Assembly (NCBI GenBank): GCA_028292745.1
Contig: JAQGLT010000127.1
Location: forward strand, 1-64,000
Origin: Polaromonas sp.
Lineage (GTDB): Bacteria; Pseudomonadota; Gammaproteobacteria; Burkholderiales; Burkholderiaceae_C
DNA: 64,000 nt
Direction of reading: 5' to 3'
Part shown: in pieces, positions 4,691-46,822 of the stretch
How positions within the stretch are numbered: the stretch's first letter is position 1
Layout of the letters: each line of letters begins with the position of its first letter
The notes under the pieces: generated by a model
Databases searched by the model: none
Told to the model about the DNA's origin: nothing
The model's input: only the letters and a program-made list of their open reading frames with translations
Program-made: the position numbers and the translations under genes

Positions 4691-6004
4691 CTAGAGAACC
4701 AGCGCGGCGCCGGAGGTCTTATGCGACGCGGTGTCGACCAGCACCAGGGAGCCCAGAACACGCGAACGCAGATAAGGCAGCGTTGCCAGGGGCTCTTGAA
4801 GACTCAGTTCGATATGGCCAATGGCGTTGGGTGGCAGTTCACTGGCATCTTCCTCGGCAAGCGTATTGACGTCGAGCTTGTGAACGATGCGCTTGACCTT
4901 GGCCTTGACCCAGCGATGGCCCTGCAAGGCCCAATAAATGCGGCCGGCGATCAGGGGCTCATCGTCCATCCAGGCAATGGTGACCGCCAGTTCACGGGAG
5001 GGCGCGAACGAATCCGGCGTCAGCAGCCAGTCACCGCGTGACACGTCCACTTCGCGGTCGAGCACGATCCCTGCGCTGTGTCCGGCCTGTACCGATTGCG
5101 CCTGGCGGGTATGCCCCAGCACCTGGGCCACCACGGCGGTTTTTCCGCTGGGCAGGATGGCGACGGTCTGGCCCGGCGCCACAGTGCCGGTCGCCACGCG
5201 GCCCCAGAAAACGCGCCGGCCCTGCGACGTATCGGATGAGGAAGAAAACTTCTCGACCCATTGCACCGGAAAGGCAAAGGCTTCCGCTGTTTCGGCGGGA
5301 GTGGCCGGCAGGGTTTCCAGCAACTGCAGCAGTGACAGGCCTTCATAGCCGCACCAGCCGGGTTTGCCGTCCACCACGTTGAAGCCCTTCAGCGCCGACA
5401 CAGGCACGGTGGCCTTGACCGGGATTTTTGCGGCTTCTGCAAATGCCGCCAGCGCGGCGCTGATATTTTGGTAGGCCAGGCTGGGGTCTTCAACGGCGTC
5501 GAGCTTGTTGACTGCAAAGACAATGGAGGGAACACGCAGCAGGTTGGCCAGCAGCGAATGGCGGCGGGTTTGCTGCAGCAGTTCCAGCGCCGGGTTTTTC
5601 CAGTCGAGTTTCGTCGCATCGACCAGCACCACGGCGGCGTCGGCGCTGGAGGCGGCCGTGACCATGTTGCGGGTGTACTGCTCATGGCCGGGCGCATCGC
5701 CGATGATGAACTTGCGGGCTTCGGTGGCGAAATAGCGGTAGGCCACGTCAATCGTGATGCCTTGCTCGCGCTCGGCCGACAGGCCATCGGTCAGCAGCGC
5801 CAGGTCGGTTTCGCCGGCGCGCTGAACGCCTGCGAGATGGTCTTGCAGCACAGCCTTGCTGTCCACCAGCAAACGCCCGATGAGCGTGCTTTTGCCGTCA
5901 TCAACCGAGCCGCAGGTGATGAACTTCAGCGCCGACTTCAAGTCTTTTTGGCCTGTAGCGCTTGCTGTGTCTGCGCTGCCAGCTATCAATTCCATAGTAG
6001 TCAT
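4691..6004 (-). CDS. cysN: Sulfate adenylyltransferase subunit 1 (GTPase)
   Basis: CysN is the GTP-hydrolysing subunit that drives ATP sulfurylase (CysDN) to make APS from sulfate and ATP. It has EF-Tu-like motifs: GSVDDGKS at 32-39, DAPGHEQY at 103-110 and NKLD at 166-169. The 437 residues are typical of stand-alone CysN. No APS-kinase (CysC) domain follows, in keeping with the APS-reducing CysH here. Its ATG overlaps the cysD stop (ATGA), so translation is coupled. Residues 4 to about 20 are encoded by a copy of the dispersed repeat (5945-6000), so the extreme N-terminus is repeat-derived and not part of the GTPase fold. It is the last gene of a six-gene operon. Confidence 0.96.
   Translation of the reverse strand: MTTMELIAGSADTASATGQKDLKSALKFITCGSVDDGKSTLIGRLLVDSKAVLQDHLAGVQRAGETDLALLTDGLSAEREQGITIDVAYRYFATEARKFIIGDAPGHEQYTRNMVTAASSADAAVVLVDATKLDWKNPALELLQQTRRHSLLANLLRVPSIVFAVNKLDAVEDPSLAYQNISAALAAFAEAAKIPVKATVPVSALKGFNVVDGKPGWCGYEGLSLLQLLETLPATPAETAEAFAFPVQWVEKFSSSSDTSQGRRVFWGRVATGTVAPGQTVAILPSGKTAVVAQVLGHTRQAQSVQAGHSAGIVLDREVDVSRGDWLLTPDSFAPSRELAVTIAWMDDEPLIAGRIYWALQGHRWVKAKVKRIVHKLDVNTLAEEDASELPPNAIGHIELSLQEPLATLPYLRSRVLGSLVLVDTASHKTSGAALVL
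5945..6000 (-). repeat. Dispersed repeat copy inside the start of cysN
   Basis: On the minus strand this 56-base block matches the copy at 8084-8139 at 47 of 56 positions by eye, without gaps. It contains the family's marks: ATAGCTG near one end and ACAGGCCAAAAA at the other. It encodes cysN codons just after the start. Confidence 0.85.
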
Positions 6005-6936
6005 CAGAAATACCCGTCTTTCTTGCGCTTTTCCATCGAAGCGTCGGAGGTTTTGTCGTCCATGCGCGTGGCGCCGCGTTCGCTCACGTCGGCCGCCAGC
6101 GTTTCAATCACGATTTCGGCGGCCGTGGCAGCCGTGCTGTCGACCGGGCAGGTGCAGGTGATGTCGCCCACGGTGCGAAAGCGCACGGTTTTTTCAACAA
6201 TCTGCTCGTCACCCCGCGCGGGGGTGAGATCGGTGACCGGCACCAGGAGGCCCTTGCGCTCGACCACCTTGCGCTGATGCGCGTAGTAGAGCGAAGGCAA
6301 TTCGATCTGCTCGCGCTCGATGTACTGCCACACGTCCAGCTCGGTCCAGTTGGAGATGGGAAACACGCGGAAATGCTCGCCGGGTTGCATCCGGGTATTG
6401 AACTGCGTCCAGAGTTCGGGGCGCTGGGCCTTGGGCTGCCACTGGCCGATGCTGTCGCTGTGCGAAAATATGCGCTCCTTGGCGCGCGCCTTTTCTTCAT
6501 CGCGCCGCGCGCCGCCGATCAGCGCATCGAAGCGGAATTCGTCGATGGCTTCAAGCAGCGTGACCGACTGATGCACATTGCGCGATTCGCCGGGATGGGC
6601 CAGGCGCACCGTGCCGCGTTTCATTGAATCCTCGACATTGCGAACGATCAGCTCGGCGCCCAGCTCTTTCGCGCGCGAGTCACGGAAATCGGTCACTTCA
6701 TGAAAGTTGTGGCCGGTGTCGATCATCAGCAGCGGATAGGGAATGCGGCCGATGCCGAACGCCTTTTCGGCGCACTTGAGCATCACCAGCGAGTCCTTGC
6801 CGCCCGAAAACAACAGGGTGGGGCGCTCGAAGGCGGCGGCGACTTCGCGCAGGATGAAGATGGTCTCTTCTTCCAGCGCATCAAGATGGGAGTTGCTCAG
6901 CTTGGCAAGCAACTGGGTGTCGGCTCTGGCGTTCAT
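6004..6936 (-). CDS. cysD: Sulfate adenylyltransferase subunit 2
   Basis: CysD is the adenylyl-transferring subunit of ATP sulfurylase. The 310-residue protein has the PP-loop motif SGGKDS at 44-49, the family segment GGARRDEEKARAKERIFS, and a C-terminal RKKDGYF ending typical of CysD. The ATG at 6934-6936 overlaps the cysH stop, and its own stop overlaps the cysN start, so cysH-cysD-cysN form a tightly coupled string. Length agrees with the family norm of about 300 residues. Confidence 0.97.
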   Translation of the reverse strand: MNARADTQLLAKLSNSHLDALEEETIFILREVAAAFERPTLLFSGGKDSLVMLKCAEKAFGIGRIPYPLLMIDTGHNFHEVTDFRDSRAKELGAELIVRNVEDSMKRGTVRLAHPGESRNVHQSVTLLEAIDEFRFDALIGGARRDEEKARAKERIFSHSDSIGQWQPKAQRPELWTQFNTRMQPGEHFRVFPISNWTELDVWQYIEREQIELPSLYYAHQRKVVERKGLLVPVTDLTPARGDEQIVEKTVRFRTVGDITCTCPVDSTAATAAEIVIETLAADVSERGATRMDDKTSDASMEKRKKDGYF

Positions 6937-7718
6937 GCGGTGATCTCTCGGATGGGAATGATGCTGGAAAGCGGTTCAAACGCGGCGGGTTCCTGCGCTT
7001 CATGGCTGCCGTCGGCGGCCACATGCAGGCCGCATTCCTTGGCGCTTTCGTTTTCCCACCACCAGCGGCCGGAGCGGAAATCCTCGCCCAGCGTCACGGC
7101 ACGGGTGCAGGGCGCGCAGCCGATGCTGGGGAAGAACTGGTCATGCAGCGGGTTGTAGGGAATCTCGTTTTGCGAAATGCAGTGCCAGATGTCGCCCTGC
7201 GTCCACTCGACCAGCGGATTGATCTTGACGCGCTCCGGCTGCTGCTCGATGTCATGGACTTCGGCCCTGGCAGCAGATTGCTCGCGGCGCAGGCCGGTCA
7301 GCCAGCCTTTCTTGCCGGCCAGGGCGCGCTCCAGCGGCTCCATCTTGCGGATGTGGCAGCACTGCTTGCGCAGGTCCAGGCTTTTGTACATTGCCTCAAG
7401 GCCGTGGGTCTGGACAAACGCCGACGCTGCCGCCGCCTCCGGGCGGTACACCTCGACCTTGATACCGTAGCGATCTTCGATGCGGCCGATCAGCGCGACG
7501 GTTTCCGCATGGAGCATGCCGGTGTCGAGCACGAAAATGCTGGCGTCGATGCCGGCTTCCCGCATCAGGTGCGTCACGACCACGTCTTCAGCGCCCAGGC
7601 TGGAGGCTTGCGTCAGGGGCGAATAGGCGATGGCCGACGATTTCAGCAAGGCCAGACTGCGCGCGAGTTTTTGCGCAAAATCGGCTGAAGGCTTGGCGTA
7701 AAGAGAAATAGCGCTCAT
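6933..7718 (-). CDS. cysH: Adenylyl-sulfate (APS) reductase
   Basis: CysH reduces activated sulfate to sulfite with thioredoxin. Besides the PP-loop fold, this 261-residue protein has the [4Fe-4S] ligands of APS-type reductases: adjacent cysteines at 120-121 (QCCHIRKMEPL) and CAPC at 201-204, plus the catalytic cysteine in KECGLH at 229. PAPS-specific enzymes lack the cluster cysteines, so APS is the likely substrate, which fits the absence of an APS kinase. AAAGGAG precedes the ATG. It follows the DUF934 gene by 11 bases and overlaps cysD. Confidence 0.95.
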   Translation of the reverse strand: MSAISLYAKPSADFAQKLARSLALLKSSAIAYSPLTQASSLGAEDVVVTHLMREAGIDASIFVLDTGMLHAETVALIGRIEDRYGIKVEVYRPEAAAASAFVQTHGLEAMYKSLDLRKQCCHIRKMEPLERALAGKKGWLTGLRREQSAARAEVHDIEQQPERVKINPLVEWTQGDIWHCISQNEIPYNPLHDQFFPSIGCAPCTRAVTLGEDFRSGRWWWENESAKECGLHVAADGSHEAQEPAAFEPLSSIIPIREITA

Positions 7719-7729
7719 AGCGGCTCCTT

Positions 7730-8134
7730 TCAGGCGCTGGCCGGTGCTGCGGACACGAAGTGCGGGCGGATGTCCACGGCGTCGCCCTGGTACTTGCCGA
7801 CGCCGTAGCCGGGATAGGCCGCCAGCACGCGCTGGGCAATCGCTAGATCCTGATCGGCGCGCAGCACGGCCACGTCAAAGCCGCTGCGCTCCATTTGCGC
7901 CAGCTGGTCCACCAGCACATCGCCGGTGGCCCGGATTTCGCCCTGGAACCCCAGGCGGCGGCGCAGCAGGAAAGCCTGGCTGAACGCCCGGCCATCGCTG
8001 AACTTCGGAAAGTTCAGGTCAATCCGGTCCACGCCGGCGAGGTCAAGCTGCAGGGGATCGGCAGTATTTGCCAGTTCAATGACTTTTTGGCCTGTGGCGC
8101 ATGCAGCGCCTGCGCTGGCAGCTATTAATTTCAT
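7730..8134 (-). CDS. DUF934 family protein of the sulfite-reductase operon
   Basis: DUF934 proteins are small and commonly sit beside cysI and cysH in proteobacteria; their biochemical role is not settled. The core here runs from about residue 40 (LNFPKFSDGRAFSQAFLLRR, then GDVLVDQLAQMERSGFD), matching the family. At 134 residues it is shorter than many members because the N-terminal part is different. Its first 17 or so residues, MKLIAASAGAACATGQK, including the start codon, are encoded by a dispersed-repeat copy at 8084-8139. No strong ribosome-binding site precedes that ATG, only AGAG. The true start could therefore be questioned, but no better in-frame start is evident. Confidence 0.85.
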   Translation of the reverse strand: MKLIAASAGAACATGQKVIELANTADPLQLDLAGVDRIDLNFPKFSDGRAFSQAFLLRRRLGFQGEIRATGDVLVDQLAQMERSGFDVAVLRADQDLAIAQRVLAAYPGYGVGKYQGDAVDIRPHFVSAAPASA

Positions 8135-8139
8135 AGTAA
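8084..8139 (-). repeat. Dispersed repeat copy forming the start of the DUF934 gene
   Basis: This 56-base block is the closest relative in the window of the block at 5945-6000. The minus-strand copy contains the ATG of the DUF934 gene in its TACTATGAAATTAATAGCTG part and ends ACAGGCCAAAAA. It is directly readable as codons 1 to about 17. Confidence 0.85.
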
Positions 8140-8172: not shown

Positions 8173-9993
8173 TCAGGCGGTGCTGGCCTCGGCCTGCTCG
8201 GTGCGCGTGGCGCTGAAGCGAGCGCCGTTGGCCGCCTGCTTGAACGGATCAGCGCCCACCCGGCGCAGCGTGGCGATAAAGGTTTCGCGGCCCTGGCGCT
8301 GCTGGCGGTAGGTTTGCAGCACGGCTTCGATGACCTCAGGCACTTCGGCCGCCGAGAACGAGGGACCGACGGCCTTGCCGGCCAGCGCCGGGCCCGAAAG
8401 CGTGGAGCCGTCGGAGCCGCCGAGCGACACCTGATACCACTCCTTGCCGTCCTTGTCCACGCCCAGAATGCCGATGTGGCCGCTGTGGTGGTGGCCGCAG
8501 GAGTTGATGCAGCCGCTGATGTGCAGGTCGATCTCGCCCAGGTCATGCAGCTCGTCCAGATCCTGGTAGCGCTCGGTGATGGCTTCGGCGATGGGAATCG
8601 AGCGCGCGTTGGCCAGCGAGCAGAAATCGCCGCCGGGGCAGGCGATCATGTCGGTGAGCAGGTGGATGTTGGCCTTGGCAAAGCCGGCCTGCCGCGCGGC
8701 CCGCCAGAGCGCGGGCAGCTCGTCGCTGCGCACCCAGGGCAGCAGCAGGTTCTGCTCGTGGGTGACGCGCGCCTCGCCGGCGCTGAAACGGTCGGCCATG
8801 TTGGCGGCCAGGTCGAGCTGGTCGGCCGTGGCGTCGCCCGGCGCCTGGCCCAGGCGCTTGAAGGACAGGGTCACGGCGCGCAGGTCGGGATTTTGGTGCG
8901 GGGCGACATTTTGCTGCAGCCAGCGGCTGTAGGGCGCTGATTCTTCGGGGGTGATGGGGTCTGGCAGGGCGGAGGCATCCGCGCCCGGAGGGTTGAGCGC
9001 CGGCGGCACGAAGCAGGCAGCCACGCGGTCGTATTCGGCCTGGGTAATGGTGTGCGGCCCGCCATCGTGCTCGACGATCTGCCGGTATTCGGCTTCCACA
9101 TCGTCGATGTACTTTTGCCCTTCGGCCTTGACCAGGATCTTGATGCGGGCCTTGTAGATGTTGTCGCGGCGCCCGTAGCGGTTGTAGACGCGCACGACGG
9201 CTTCCAGGTAGTTCATGATCTGGTCCCACGCCAGGAACTCGCGGATCACGGTGCCGATGACCGGCGTGCGGCCCATGCCGCCGCCGACCAGCACCTTGAA
9301 GCCCAGCGCGCCGGCCTCGTTGCGCAGCAGCTGCAGGCCCACGTCGTGCCAGCCGATGGCAGCGCGGTCTTCGCGGGCGCCGCTGATGGCGATCTTGAAC
9401 TTGCGCGGCAGGAAGGCGAATTCGGGGTGCAGCGTGCTCCACTGGCGCATGATTTCGCCGAACGGGCGCGGGTCGGCAATCTCGTCCACCGCGATGCCGG
9501 CGCGCTCGTCGCTGGTGATGTTGCGGATGCAGTTGCCGCTGGTCTGGATACCGTGCATGTTCACGCTGGCCAGCAGATCCATCACATCGGCTGATTTGTC
9601 GAGCGCAATCCAGTTGTACTGCACGTTCTGCCGGGTGGTGAAGTGGGCGTAACCCTTGGTCAGTTTGGTGTGCACCGACTGGCCGTTTTTAAGCGGAACA
9701 GGGCCCAGCTTGTCCTGGGTCGCCTGCGCCTGCTGCATCAGCGCGGCGTCGGGCTGGTCGTAGTCGCGGGCGATCTTGGCCAGCACGCGCAACTGGGCGC
9801 TGGAGAGTTCGCCATAGGGCACGGCGACCCGCAGCATCGGCGCATAGCGCTGAACATACCAGCCGTTTTGCAGCCGAAGGGGTTTGAATTCATCCTCGGC
9901 CAACTGGCCGTTCTGCCAGCGGGTGAGCTGGTCCCGAAACTGGCTGGCGCGGGCTTTCACAAACTGGCGATCAAATTCTGTGTATTGGTACAT
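8173..9993 (-). CDS. cysI: Sulfite reductase, siroheme/[4Fe-4S] hemoprotein subunit
   Basis: CysI reduces sulfite to sulfide with six electrons. The 606-residue protein has the two ferredoxin-like half domains and two siroheme/iron-sulfur repeats of the family. The cluster and siroheme ligands appear as CPGGDFC (C-x5-C, about 451-457) and CINSC (C-x3-C, about 493-497), followed by GHHHSGHIGI. No cysJ flavoprotein is encoded in the window, so the electron donor is probably a ferredoxin. It lies 30 bases after the tauE-like gene and 38 before DUF934. The annotation nitrite/sulfite reductase is also common for this family; the cys operon favours sulfite. Confidence 0.93.
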   Translation of the reverse strand: MYQYTEFDRQFVKARASQFRDQLTRWQNGQLAEDEFKPLRLQNGWYVQRYAPMLRVAVPYGELSSAQLRVLAKIARDYDQPDAALMQQAQATQDKLGPVPLKNGQSVHTKLTKGYAHFTTRQNVQYNWIALDKSADVMDLLASVNMHGIQTSGNCIRNITSDERAGIAVDEIADPRPFGEIMRQWSTLHPEFAFLPRKFKIAISGAREDRAAIGWHDVGLQLLRNEAGALGFKVLVGGGMGRTPVIGTVIREFLAWDQIMNYLEAVVRVYNRYGRRDNIYKARIKILVKAEGQKYIDDVEAEYRQIVEHDGGPHTITQAEYDRVAACFVPPALNPPGADASALPDPITPEESAPYSRWLQQNVAPHQNPDLRAVTLSFKRLGQAPGDATADQLDLAANMADRFSAGEARVTHEQNLLLPWVRSDELPALWRAARQAGFAKANIHLLTDMIACPGGDFCSLANARSIPIAEAITERYQDLDELHDLGEIDLHISGCINSCGHHHSGHIGILGVDKDGKEWYQVSLGGSDGSTLSGPALAGKAVGPSFSAAEVPEVIEAVLQTYRQQRQGRETFIATLRRVGADPFKQAANGARFSATRTEQAEASTA

Positions 9994-21632: not shown

Positions 21633-21718
21633 TGGCATATGCAACTGTCCTGCTCCCGCATGGCGCATGCCCCAGCGGAAAAAAGCGACCGGGACGGAAT
21701 GGTTGGATTTTATGAACG

Positions 21719-21776
21719 AAATAAGCCTCTGGCGCAATGACTACAAGCGCGAGTAGCTATTAATTTAGTAGCAAAT
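21719..21776 (-). repeat. Dispersed repeat copy between ssuB and ssuF
   Basis: On the plus strand it reads AAATAAGCCTCTGGCGCA, then a GC-rich spacer with CAAGCGC, then TAGCTATTAATTTAGTAGCA. This is the inverse orientation of the copies at 38710 and 46679. It separates ssuB from ssuF without an evident terminator. Confidence 0.65.
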
Positions 21777-33075: not shown

Positions 33076-33473
33076 GTTGTCTCGCTTGCACCCAGGAAGG
33101 GAAGAATGAAAAGGGAATGCCAGCCAGTTTCTCCAATGCCGCAAAGTGCTGCCGTCGGCGTGAAGTCACGGAACTTGTAGGCGGCGGGCGACACCGCCCC
33201 GGCAACGCTGCCCAGCCGAAAAGGGATGCGGCGCCCGGCTCGGTCGCCGAGGCAGGGCGCAGGTCTGGACGGCGCCCCTTCGCTGCGCTTCGGAAAGCGC
33301 AGGCCCGACGCAATGGGGCGCAAGCGGAGCCGGAACGGGTCTGGGCAAGAATTTTGATAAAAAAGTGCCGCTGGCGCAGGTGGGATAAGCGCAGATAGCT
33401 ATTAAATTTGTAGCATTTATGGTTGCGCCTGATAGGCGTGCCGGACGCGCCGGACGCGCCTTATCCCGTCGGT
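33076..33473. other. Intergenic region between the DUF3482 and BrkB genes
   Basis: No convincing gene lies in these 398 bases. The stretch 33265-33310 is GC-rich with CGCTGCGCTTCGGAAAGCGC, a self-complementary run that may be part of another repeat type. A dispersed repeat copy is at 33359-33415. Confidence 0.45.
33359..33415 (-). repeat. Dispersed repeat copy upstream of the BrkB gene
   Basis: On the plus strand AAAAAAGTGCCGCTGGCGCA is followed by GATAAGCGCAGATAGCTATT and AAATTTGTAGCA, matching the inverse-orientation layout of the family. Confidence 0.65.
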
Positions 33474-38642: not shown

Positions 38643-38709
38643 CACAGCAACAGCACGCTGACTTTCAAACCCGGCGTTCAACAAGCCTGGTAGTGGCCTG
38701 GCTGATAAT

Positions 38710-38769
38710 TGCTATTTAATCCATAGCTGCTTGCGCATGACAGGCAAGCGCTGGAGGCCTATTTGATGC
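38710..38769 (+). repeat. Dispersed repeat copy, well-preserved
   Basis: TTGCTATTTAATCCATAGCTG is followed by CTTGCGC, GGCAAGCGCTGGAGGCC and TATTTGATGC. This copy shows the family layout most completely in the plus orientation. Confidence 0.75.
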
Positions 38770-38815
38770 TAAAAAACGATCACCTTGAGGGCCGTTTGCC
38801 CGACTGGGTTCACAC

Positions 38816-46617: not shown

Positions 46618-46678
46618 GCTGAAAGACGTTGAAGCCACCCCGCGCAGTGGCTGGCCCGGCTTGTCATTCAACCCGGGT

Positions 46679-46739
46679 TGCTATAATTTTAATAGCTGAC
46701 GGCGCAAGCACTACCTGCGCTGCCGGCCTGTTTTGCATA
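46679..46739 (+). repeat. Dispersed repeat copy between dsbB and the aminotransferase
   Basis: TTGCTATAATTTTAATAGCTG is followed by CGGCGCAAGCAC, CTGCGCTGCCGGCCTG and TTTTGCA, a clear plus-orientation copy. Confidence 0.72.
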
Positions 46740-46822
46740 AAAAATTGCCAGTCAGCGCAAACTGACCGGCATGCCGGCCTGGCATCCTTTGCGGATGCGC
46801 ACATGATGGGCTTGGGCCAGCC

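Follow-up and report, generated by a model that had tools for sequence, protein, structure and literature searches.

Two genes of one sulfate-reduction operon, cysN and the gene of a DUF934 protein, begin here with copies of the same short repeat, which raises the question of how such a repeat came to encode the front ends of both proteins and what keeps these coding copies similar to the noncoding ones. We analyzed the first 64 kb of one contig in a genome of 3.78 Mb (hereafter the window), in which the genes concerned all lie on the minus strand. They are, in the direction of reading, a cysI-like sulfite/nitrite reductase gene (8173..9993; ORF and Pfam family match), the gene of the DUF934 protein of 134 aa (7730..8134; ORF, with PF06073 matched at residues 22-126, E 7.8e-32), two genes of the PAPS_reduct family (ORF and family match) that we take, from their position, to be cysH (6933..7718) and cysD (6004..6936), and cysN, encoding the 437-aa large subunit of sulfate adenylyltransferase (4691..6004; ORF, GTP_EFTU E 1.2e-36). 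These cys genes group with Polaromonas, the nearest rows of our tree being a Burkholderiales MAG (L097) and Polaromonas glacialis (L098). In a structure search, the best solved relative of CysN was 1zun_B, and the DUF934 protein had no convincing solved structure (best E 0.35).

An nhmmer profile built from 70 intergenic copies of the repeat, taken from four genomes, matches the 5′ end of the DUF934 gene (8073..8139, minus strand, E 4.9e-14) and that of cysN (5937..5999, minus strand, E 6.3e-13). In the DUF934 gene, the 48-bp core of the element, CTAT...GGCC at 8089-8136, makes up codons 1-15 and part of codon 16, the ATG included. In cysN, the core (5950-5997) covers approximately codons 3-19, and the start codon, at 6004, lies outside it, in an ATGA that overlaps the cysD stop. 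A preliminary description, made from the sequence alone, had matched 8084-8139 to 5945-6000, with 47 of 56 positions identical and a common reading frame. Both points held: the best identity in five plainly shuffled windows was 28-30 on the forward strand, and the common frame gives MKLIAASAGAACATGQK in DUF934 and MTTMELIAGSADTASATGQK in CysN. That the repeat supplies a start codon is right for DUF934, whose ATG is within the repeat (CTATG), and wrong for cysN, which starts upstream of it. The coordinates first given for the DUF934 copy do fall within the element, and cover only part of it when compared with the two profile matches.

The starts were also compared among relatives. The window's cysN has a second ATG inside the repeat. 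This codon is kept as ATG in just 2 of 38 repeat-like relatives and is otherwise ACT (13), ACA (10), ATT (8) or another (5); the overlap of cysD stop and cysN start, TGATG, recurs in 49 of 70 relatives. For DUF934, the chosen start is upstream of the position of the repeat's ATG in 4 of 37 repeat-like relatives (L135, L141, L169 and L171).

The two leaders belong to a family of palindromic elements of about 70 bp, of the form ttGCTATTaaTTTnATAGCTGcttGCGC..N..GCgCtagaGGCC.., with the 48-bp core CTATnnnnTnnATAGCT-N27-GGCC, which is dispersed in Comamonadaceae. When the window's own genome was searched with the DUF934 copy, the cysN copy was recovered (E=1.3e-12) among at least 37 matches at E<=0.001, counted on the 40 of 126 candidates that were scored. 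Further nhmmer matches in the window are at 38709..38777 (plus strand, E 4.5e-18), at 46678..46746 (plus strand, E 1.5e-15, where the own-genome match L025 falls) and at 21706..21774 (minus strand, E 2.4e-13), and a shorter copy is at 33367..33416 (minus strand, E 1.6e-11). A pattern search of the own genome gave 48 matches, versus 6 for a backward control. Counted with the strict pattern, there are 55 copies in Rhodoferax ferrireducens OTU1, 32 in Acidovorax sp. Leaf160, 35 in Curvibacter delicatus, 114 in Polaromonas P2-4, 4 in Polaromonas JS666 and 1 in Delftia tsuruhatensis, and the backward patterns gave 0 copies in these six genomes. The middle part of the element differs by genome, reading GCGCCCGtnnnnnnTGGGCTAgaGGCC in P2-4, GCgCttnnntanCaAGCGCnagaGGCC in Acidovorax, GCGCAtAtTcnaCaAGgtcnagaGGCC in Curvibacter and GCGCangcncngcnTGCGCtagaGGCC in the window's genome. 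No known RNA family matches at the repeat, the sole RNA-family match in the window being a tRNA, and plasmid sequences searched with the DUF934 copy gave no match.

Most copies are intergenic, since 20 of 30 own-genome pattern matches overlap no called ORF, and some of the remaining 10 are miscalled starts or chance matches. We read the frames of 83 gap-free aligned copies, drawn from four genomes and counting those that lie in genes. Stops are absent from the sense frame of the two leaders in 63 of them, and from the remaining sense frames in 31 and 0, so that a copy at a gene front in this orientation will mostly be read in the frame seen here, as was suggested earlier on the ground that this frame lacks stops. 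On the antisense side, frame 1 is open in 41, frame 2 in 57 and frame 0 in 16 of the 83 copies. A CTATG with its ATG in the used frame is present in 14.

The repeat motif itself is partly in print. According to the accessible text of an earlier report, the motif ATAGCT(N)22CAAAAG of P. naphthalenivorans CJ2 has 125 copies, of which 101 are intergenic, 18 in genes and 6 overlapping gene ends, and it stands there as an unnamed potential motif of one genome (PMC5217627). By eye, it has the same anchors and spacing as copies found here, for example in G069, a genome of the lineage next to the window's. The window's two coding copies have the ATAGCT anchor and the spacing, but CTACAG or CCACAG in place of CAAAAG, and the CJ2 motif and the present element have in common that they are mostly intergenic. 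From the same text, the Acidovorax ebreus motif GCTTAT(N)5AAGCG fits, again by eye, the Acidovorax copies (PMC5217627). In its accessible part, that account of the CJ2 motif holds nothing on coding leaders, on position across the family or on genome subtypes (PMC5217627). As far as the open-licence literature is accessible, repeat-coded CysN and DUF934 leaders were not found in it, a search by sequence (ATAGCTGCT) included, and coding leaders in two cys genes across genera, changing in concert with intergenic copies, did not appear.

The leaders extend well beyond this genome. A DUF934 match is present in 47 of 61 genomes searched, and the protein begins with MKLIA in 15 of 30 loci read. In GTDB genomes, MKLIA or MKIIA starts 48 of 79 readable DUF934 proteins, taken from the best 80 of at least 576 confirmed loci; because these 80 are the best-scoring ones, such leader frequencies are no unbiased sample of the family, the relatives sampled being the nearest and many of the genomes MAGs. 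Similar leaders occur in Rhodoferax, Curvibacter, Acidovorax, Paracidovorax and others. With a threshold of 10 bits, 38 of 74 rows have a repeat-like leader in DUF934 and 39 of 72 in CysN, spread across the two sides of the tree (76 rows), and 146 reversed leader regions gave no match. Taken together by locus, 28 of 70 rows have two repeat-like leaders, 19 have a single one and 23 have none. The tree was made from parts of five cys proteins without their leaders and holds those 76 of 81 rows (the window and 80 loci) that have at least three of the five parts; its cysI part may include a linker that is repeat-derived in some rows. The minimum number of state changes on it is 13 for the DUF934 leader and 14 for the CysN leader, numbers in which gain and loss are formally inseparable because the root is the midpoint only. 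The Polaromonas rows with MKLLPF... lie within the genus, which suggests loss there, at a weakly supported fork.

We then compared the leaders with the number of other copies in the same genome, for 61 rows in 60 genomes (50 loci of our choosing, in 49 genomes, and 11 others; 14 rows were left out, and five genomes were counted with a wider gap in the pattern). At least one leader is repeat-like in 41 of 42 rows with at least five other copies, compared with 2 of 19 rows with fewer. Taken separately, 33 of 41 repeat-rich rows have the DUF934 leader and 32 of 42 have that of CysN, and among the 19 repeat-poor rows, two of which (L115 and L124) are one genome, these leaders are found in 1 and 2, respectively. 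The association persists in eight phylogenetically independent pairs: for any leader, 6.7 pairs on average were concordant and 0 opposite (median p 0.016), for DUF934 alone 5.1 and 0 (median p 0.06), and for CysN alone 5.7 and 0.1 (p 0.03).

Where leaders are present, they tend to carry the features of the repeats in their own genome. Of 23 leaders scored against 12 genome profiles, 10 fitted their own genome first and 20 had it among the top three, a rank sum of 53 where 149.5 was expected (p<=5e-5 in permutations, whether unrestricted or confined to the two main clades); leaders and genomes being related, this p is not free of ancestry. The profiles covered the 27 bases between ATAGCT and GGCC and comprised 9-24 copies per genome, a selection of the listed ones where many were listed, with recognized leaders and in-gene copies removed; leaders entered the test regardless of the 10-bit threshold. 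In an initial test on 13 leaders and 7 genomes, the own genome likewise came first for 10. The three exceptions among the 23 are the DUF934 leader of Polaromonas P2-4 (L095), which ranks its own genome 10th of 12 and fits Rhodoferax profiles better than the copies of that genome, and two CysN leaders, that of G094 (rank 7) and that of G107 (rank 4). In P2-4, the richest genome counted, CysN has no repeat-like leader. The resemblance of the leaders to the repeats around them in the genome, and their frequent absence from genomes poor in the family, imply some process that holds coding and intergenic copies together in sequence.

Both leaders, then, are copies of one repeat with coding potential in frame, this repeat recurs at the ends of the same genes in many relatives, and the leaders follow its subfamilies and come and go with it. 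We think it moderately probable that they go back to old in-frame insertions at tolerant protein ends, which have been kept repeat-like by conversion from genomic copies. Copies would land near gene ends, and those within genes would survive only in open frames at tolerant places. The 5′ ends of DUF934 and cysN, which may tolerate many stop-free peptides, would each have received such a landing in frame long ago. The coding copies would since have been kept close to their intergenic counterparts in that genome, with gene conversion (non-reciprocal copying) as the likeliest means and weak protein-level selection beneath it, and in a lineage that lost the family, the leader would erode into unrelated sequence. 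We infer a single old insertion per site, loss rather than gain in rows that lack a leader, and copying by conversion. No simpler process than gene conversion suggests itself for keeping the copies alike; a homology of 50-70 bp is short for conversion of the RecA type. The more general claim, that intergenic repeats keep overwriting the N-termini of core enzymes by conversion, so that these segments diverge with the repeats and fade with the family, we put at slightly less than an even chance.

The same tracking and the same shared loss are predicted if the repeat is the binding site of a trans-acting factor, protein or RNA, that drifts in its specificity, all copies following it and decaying when it is lost. 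One feature of the leaders looks as if the DNA itself were constrained: the rare codon ATA stands at codon 4 in 24 of 25 repeat-like DUF934 leaders versus 7 of 14 that are not repeat-like, a retention that, judged from the sequences, points to DNA-level constraint or copying as well. Nevertheless, we consider a binding factor rather unlikely, as no candidate was found for it. Proteins of the Y1_Tnp family (RAYT-like) have matches at E<=0.001 in all 50 genomes searched, 18 of these repeat-poor (49 over the cut-off, Delftia below it), which gives no support to such a partner as the cause of the presence or absence of the repeat. RNA structure at the start codons shows nothing special: the folding of the two leaders is no better than that of shuffles (z -0.16 and -0.54), and three other copies in the window likewise fold like shuffles (z 0.02, 0.00 and -0.73). 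The Y1_Tnp protein is usually about 240 aa long (L004 in the own genome), with further copies in some genomes, and near the own-genome Y1_Tnp gene no repeat scores above 5.4 bits.

Leaders of the own-genome subtype would also result if each gene start were a hot spot into which copies had inserted anew in one lineage after another. The LolA copies described below, whose distance from the conserved domain takes three values (one in L298, one in L302 and one in the others), agree with this, and the lengths or starts of 12 of 37 repeat-like DUF934 relatives differ, which leaves repeated insertion some share of the probability. We find it distinctly unlikely for these leaders, because new insertions would be expected to vary more: in the other 25 of the 37, the distance from the ATG to the conserved P27 is exactly 26 codons, and 8 of the 12 that differ keep the MK start and do so only 3′ of the repeat. 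Old insertions maintained by copying remain our preferred account of the two cys genes.

We next considered whether the leaders bear marks of translation and whether their peptide has a use of its own. For DUF934, 25 repeat-like leaders that agree in length gave a ratio of mean divergence, codon positions 1+2 over position 3, of 0.59 (bootstrap 0.53-0.66), compared with 0.78 (0.74-0.84) in stop-free intergenic copies read in the leader frame; the 25 were chosen for P at codon 27, the two sets differ in taxa and related rows are not independent. A ratio of this kind would be expected of translated sequence under modest protein-level selection, and we infer translation from these starts. In predicted structures, residues 1-23 of CysN have pLDDT <50, which is weak evidence on the leader since four other stretches of the model, some in the GTPase domain, are equally low, and the DUF934 leader, with pLDDT 68-75 and a short strand at residues 2-4, is not plainly disordered. 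The third-position bias, together with the long retention in two genes of one operon, would suit a functional leader peptide common to CysN and DUF934 and serving translation or the assembly of the sulfate-reduction enzymes, a use that the preliminary description had raised. This we regard as very unlikely, both from the number of rows in which neither leader, or only one, is repeat-like and from the other proteins that carry the same repeat.

These other copies came from an in-gene scan of the own genome, C. delicatus, Acidovorax and P2-4, in which 128 copies gave 21 frame matches over the automatic score. The LolA copy (L032) and the cysN copy (L023) fell below that score and were added by eye, so that the figure of 21 bounds the true number from neither side. 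The own genome has in-frame copies within EarP, Fmt, MetH, PutA and a uracil-DNA-glycosylase-like protein, those in EarP and MetH, among others, forming linkers. C. delicatus has them within a tRNA-nucleotidyltransferase-like protein, ThiL and a MutL-like ATPase, and at the front of Era and HisH. Judged by eye, copies also lie in the signal-peptide regions of LolA and a DsbD-like protein in the own genome and of a GspD-like secretin in Acidovorax, and the scan of P2-4 gave nothing certain. Among 30 LolA loci (L288-L317, the window's genome included), the signal-peptide region is repeat-like in 9 of 25 readable sequences. A tag for sulfate reduction is not expected in LolA, EarP or MetH, and the idea of a shared tag therefore finds no support. 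Separately, two matches of the scan were judged false, L016 (a native motif, matched by chance) and L176 (where the start is downstream), and L226 and L274 are doubtful.

That both proteins start downstream, the repeat being an untranslated 5′ element, is scarcely credible: in cysN, a TTG at codon 22, just past the repeat, would leave the GTPase domain intact, but in DUF934 the next in-frame ATG, GTG or TTG is a GTG at codon 35, within the Pfam match, and the frequent TGATG overlap of cysD and cysN and the third-codon-position bias of the DUF934 leaders also speak against it.

Several known repeats resemble this one in part. Rickettsia palindromic elements are described, in the accessible text, as translated in-frame insertions of about 150 bp in unrelated metabolic genes (PMC10969869). 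Like them, the present palindrome stands in frame in unrelated proteins (EarP, Fmt, LolA, MetH, PutA, ThiL and Era); unlike them, and comparing by description, it is about 70 bp long, mostly intergenic and found in another group, and its coding copies follow the intergenic ones. The BRE repeat, as given in the accessible text of its report, is 75-91 bp long with an average of 69% GC in Bordetella, and has 29 copies in Polaromonas JS666 (PMC3110155). It too is a dispersed betaproteobacterial repeat, partly in coding sequences, with Polaromonas as a host, but the strict pattern of our element has 4 copies in JS666 versus 29, and we set the two apart by copy number and description (PMC3110155). 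With REPs, the element shares short palindromes in many, mostly intergenic copies, and it differs from REP/RAYT systems in that no Y1_Tnp-repeat link was seen in 50 genomes. The JS666 genome paper is reportedly cited in a review for MITEs. Six Comamonadaceae genera were looked for in the available text of a paper on the GTAG/CGTC tag of REPs, and it mentions none of them.

Short dispersed repeats are usually treated as noncoding, and here one such repeat encodes the beginnings of two core sulfur enzymes across many members of a bacterial family. It also forms the LolA signal-peptide region and linkers in further enzymes, the coding copies following the subtype of their own genome. If conversion is the process at work, noncoding repeats would have a route by which to keep rewriting proteins, and the question of gene conversion among REP-like elements could be tested on coding copies, since the gene itself tells their ancestry. 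Whether REPs evolve by gene conversion is the question posed, as cited, in the title of a review of 1988.

Some further copies deserve mention for themselves. In cysI of the Rhodoferax type, a repeat copy on the opposite strand forms a variable linker (L123, L125, L132, L139, L141, L152, L153, L154, L156, L158, L171 and L174); the matches start between 3790 and 4149 on the minus strand, and L135 has a profile match at the same place. For the MutL-like copy (L241, with gene context from C. delicatus), similar 48-mers were seen by eye in G070, G092, G094, G108 and G110, so that several genera seem to have this copy in common. The AT-rich arm, read antisense, gives possible M-x-x-I-A starts in C. 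delicatus (L181 and L222), namely MNSIANGV... of the HisH-like protein and MKTIALSW... of another protein.
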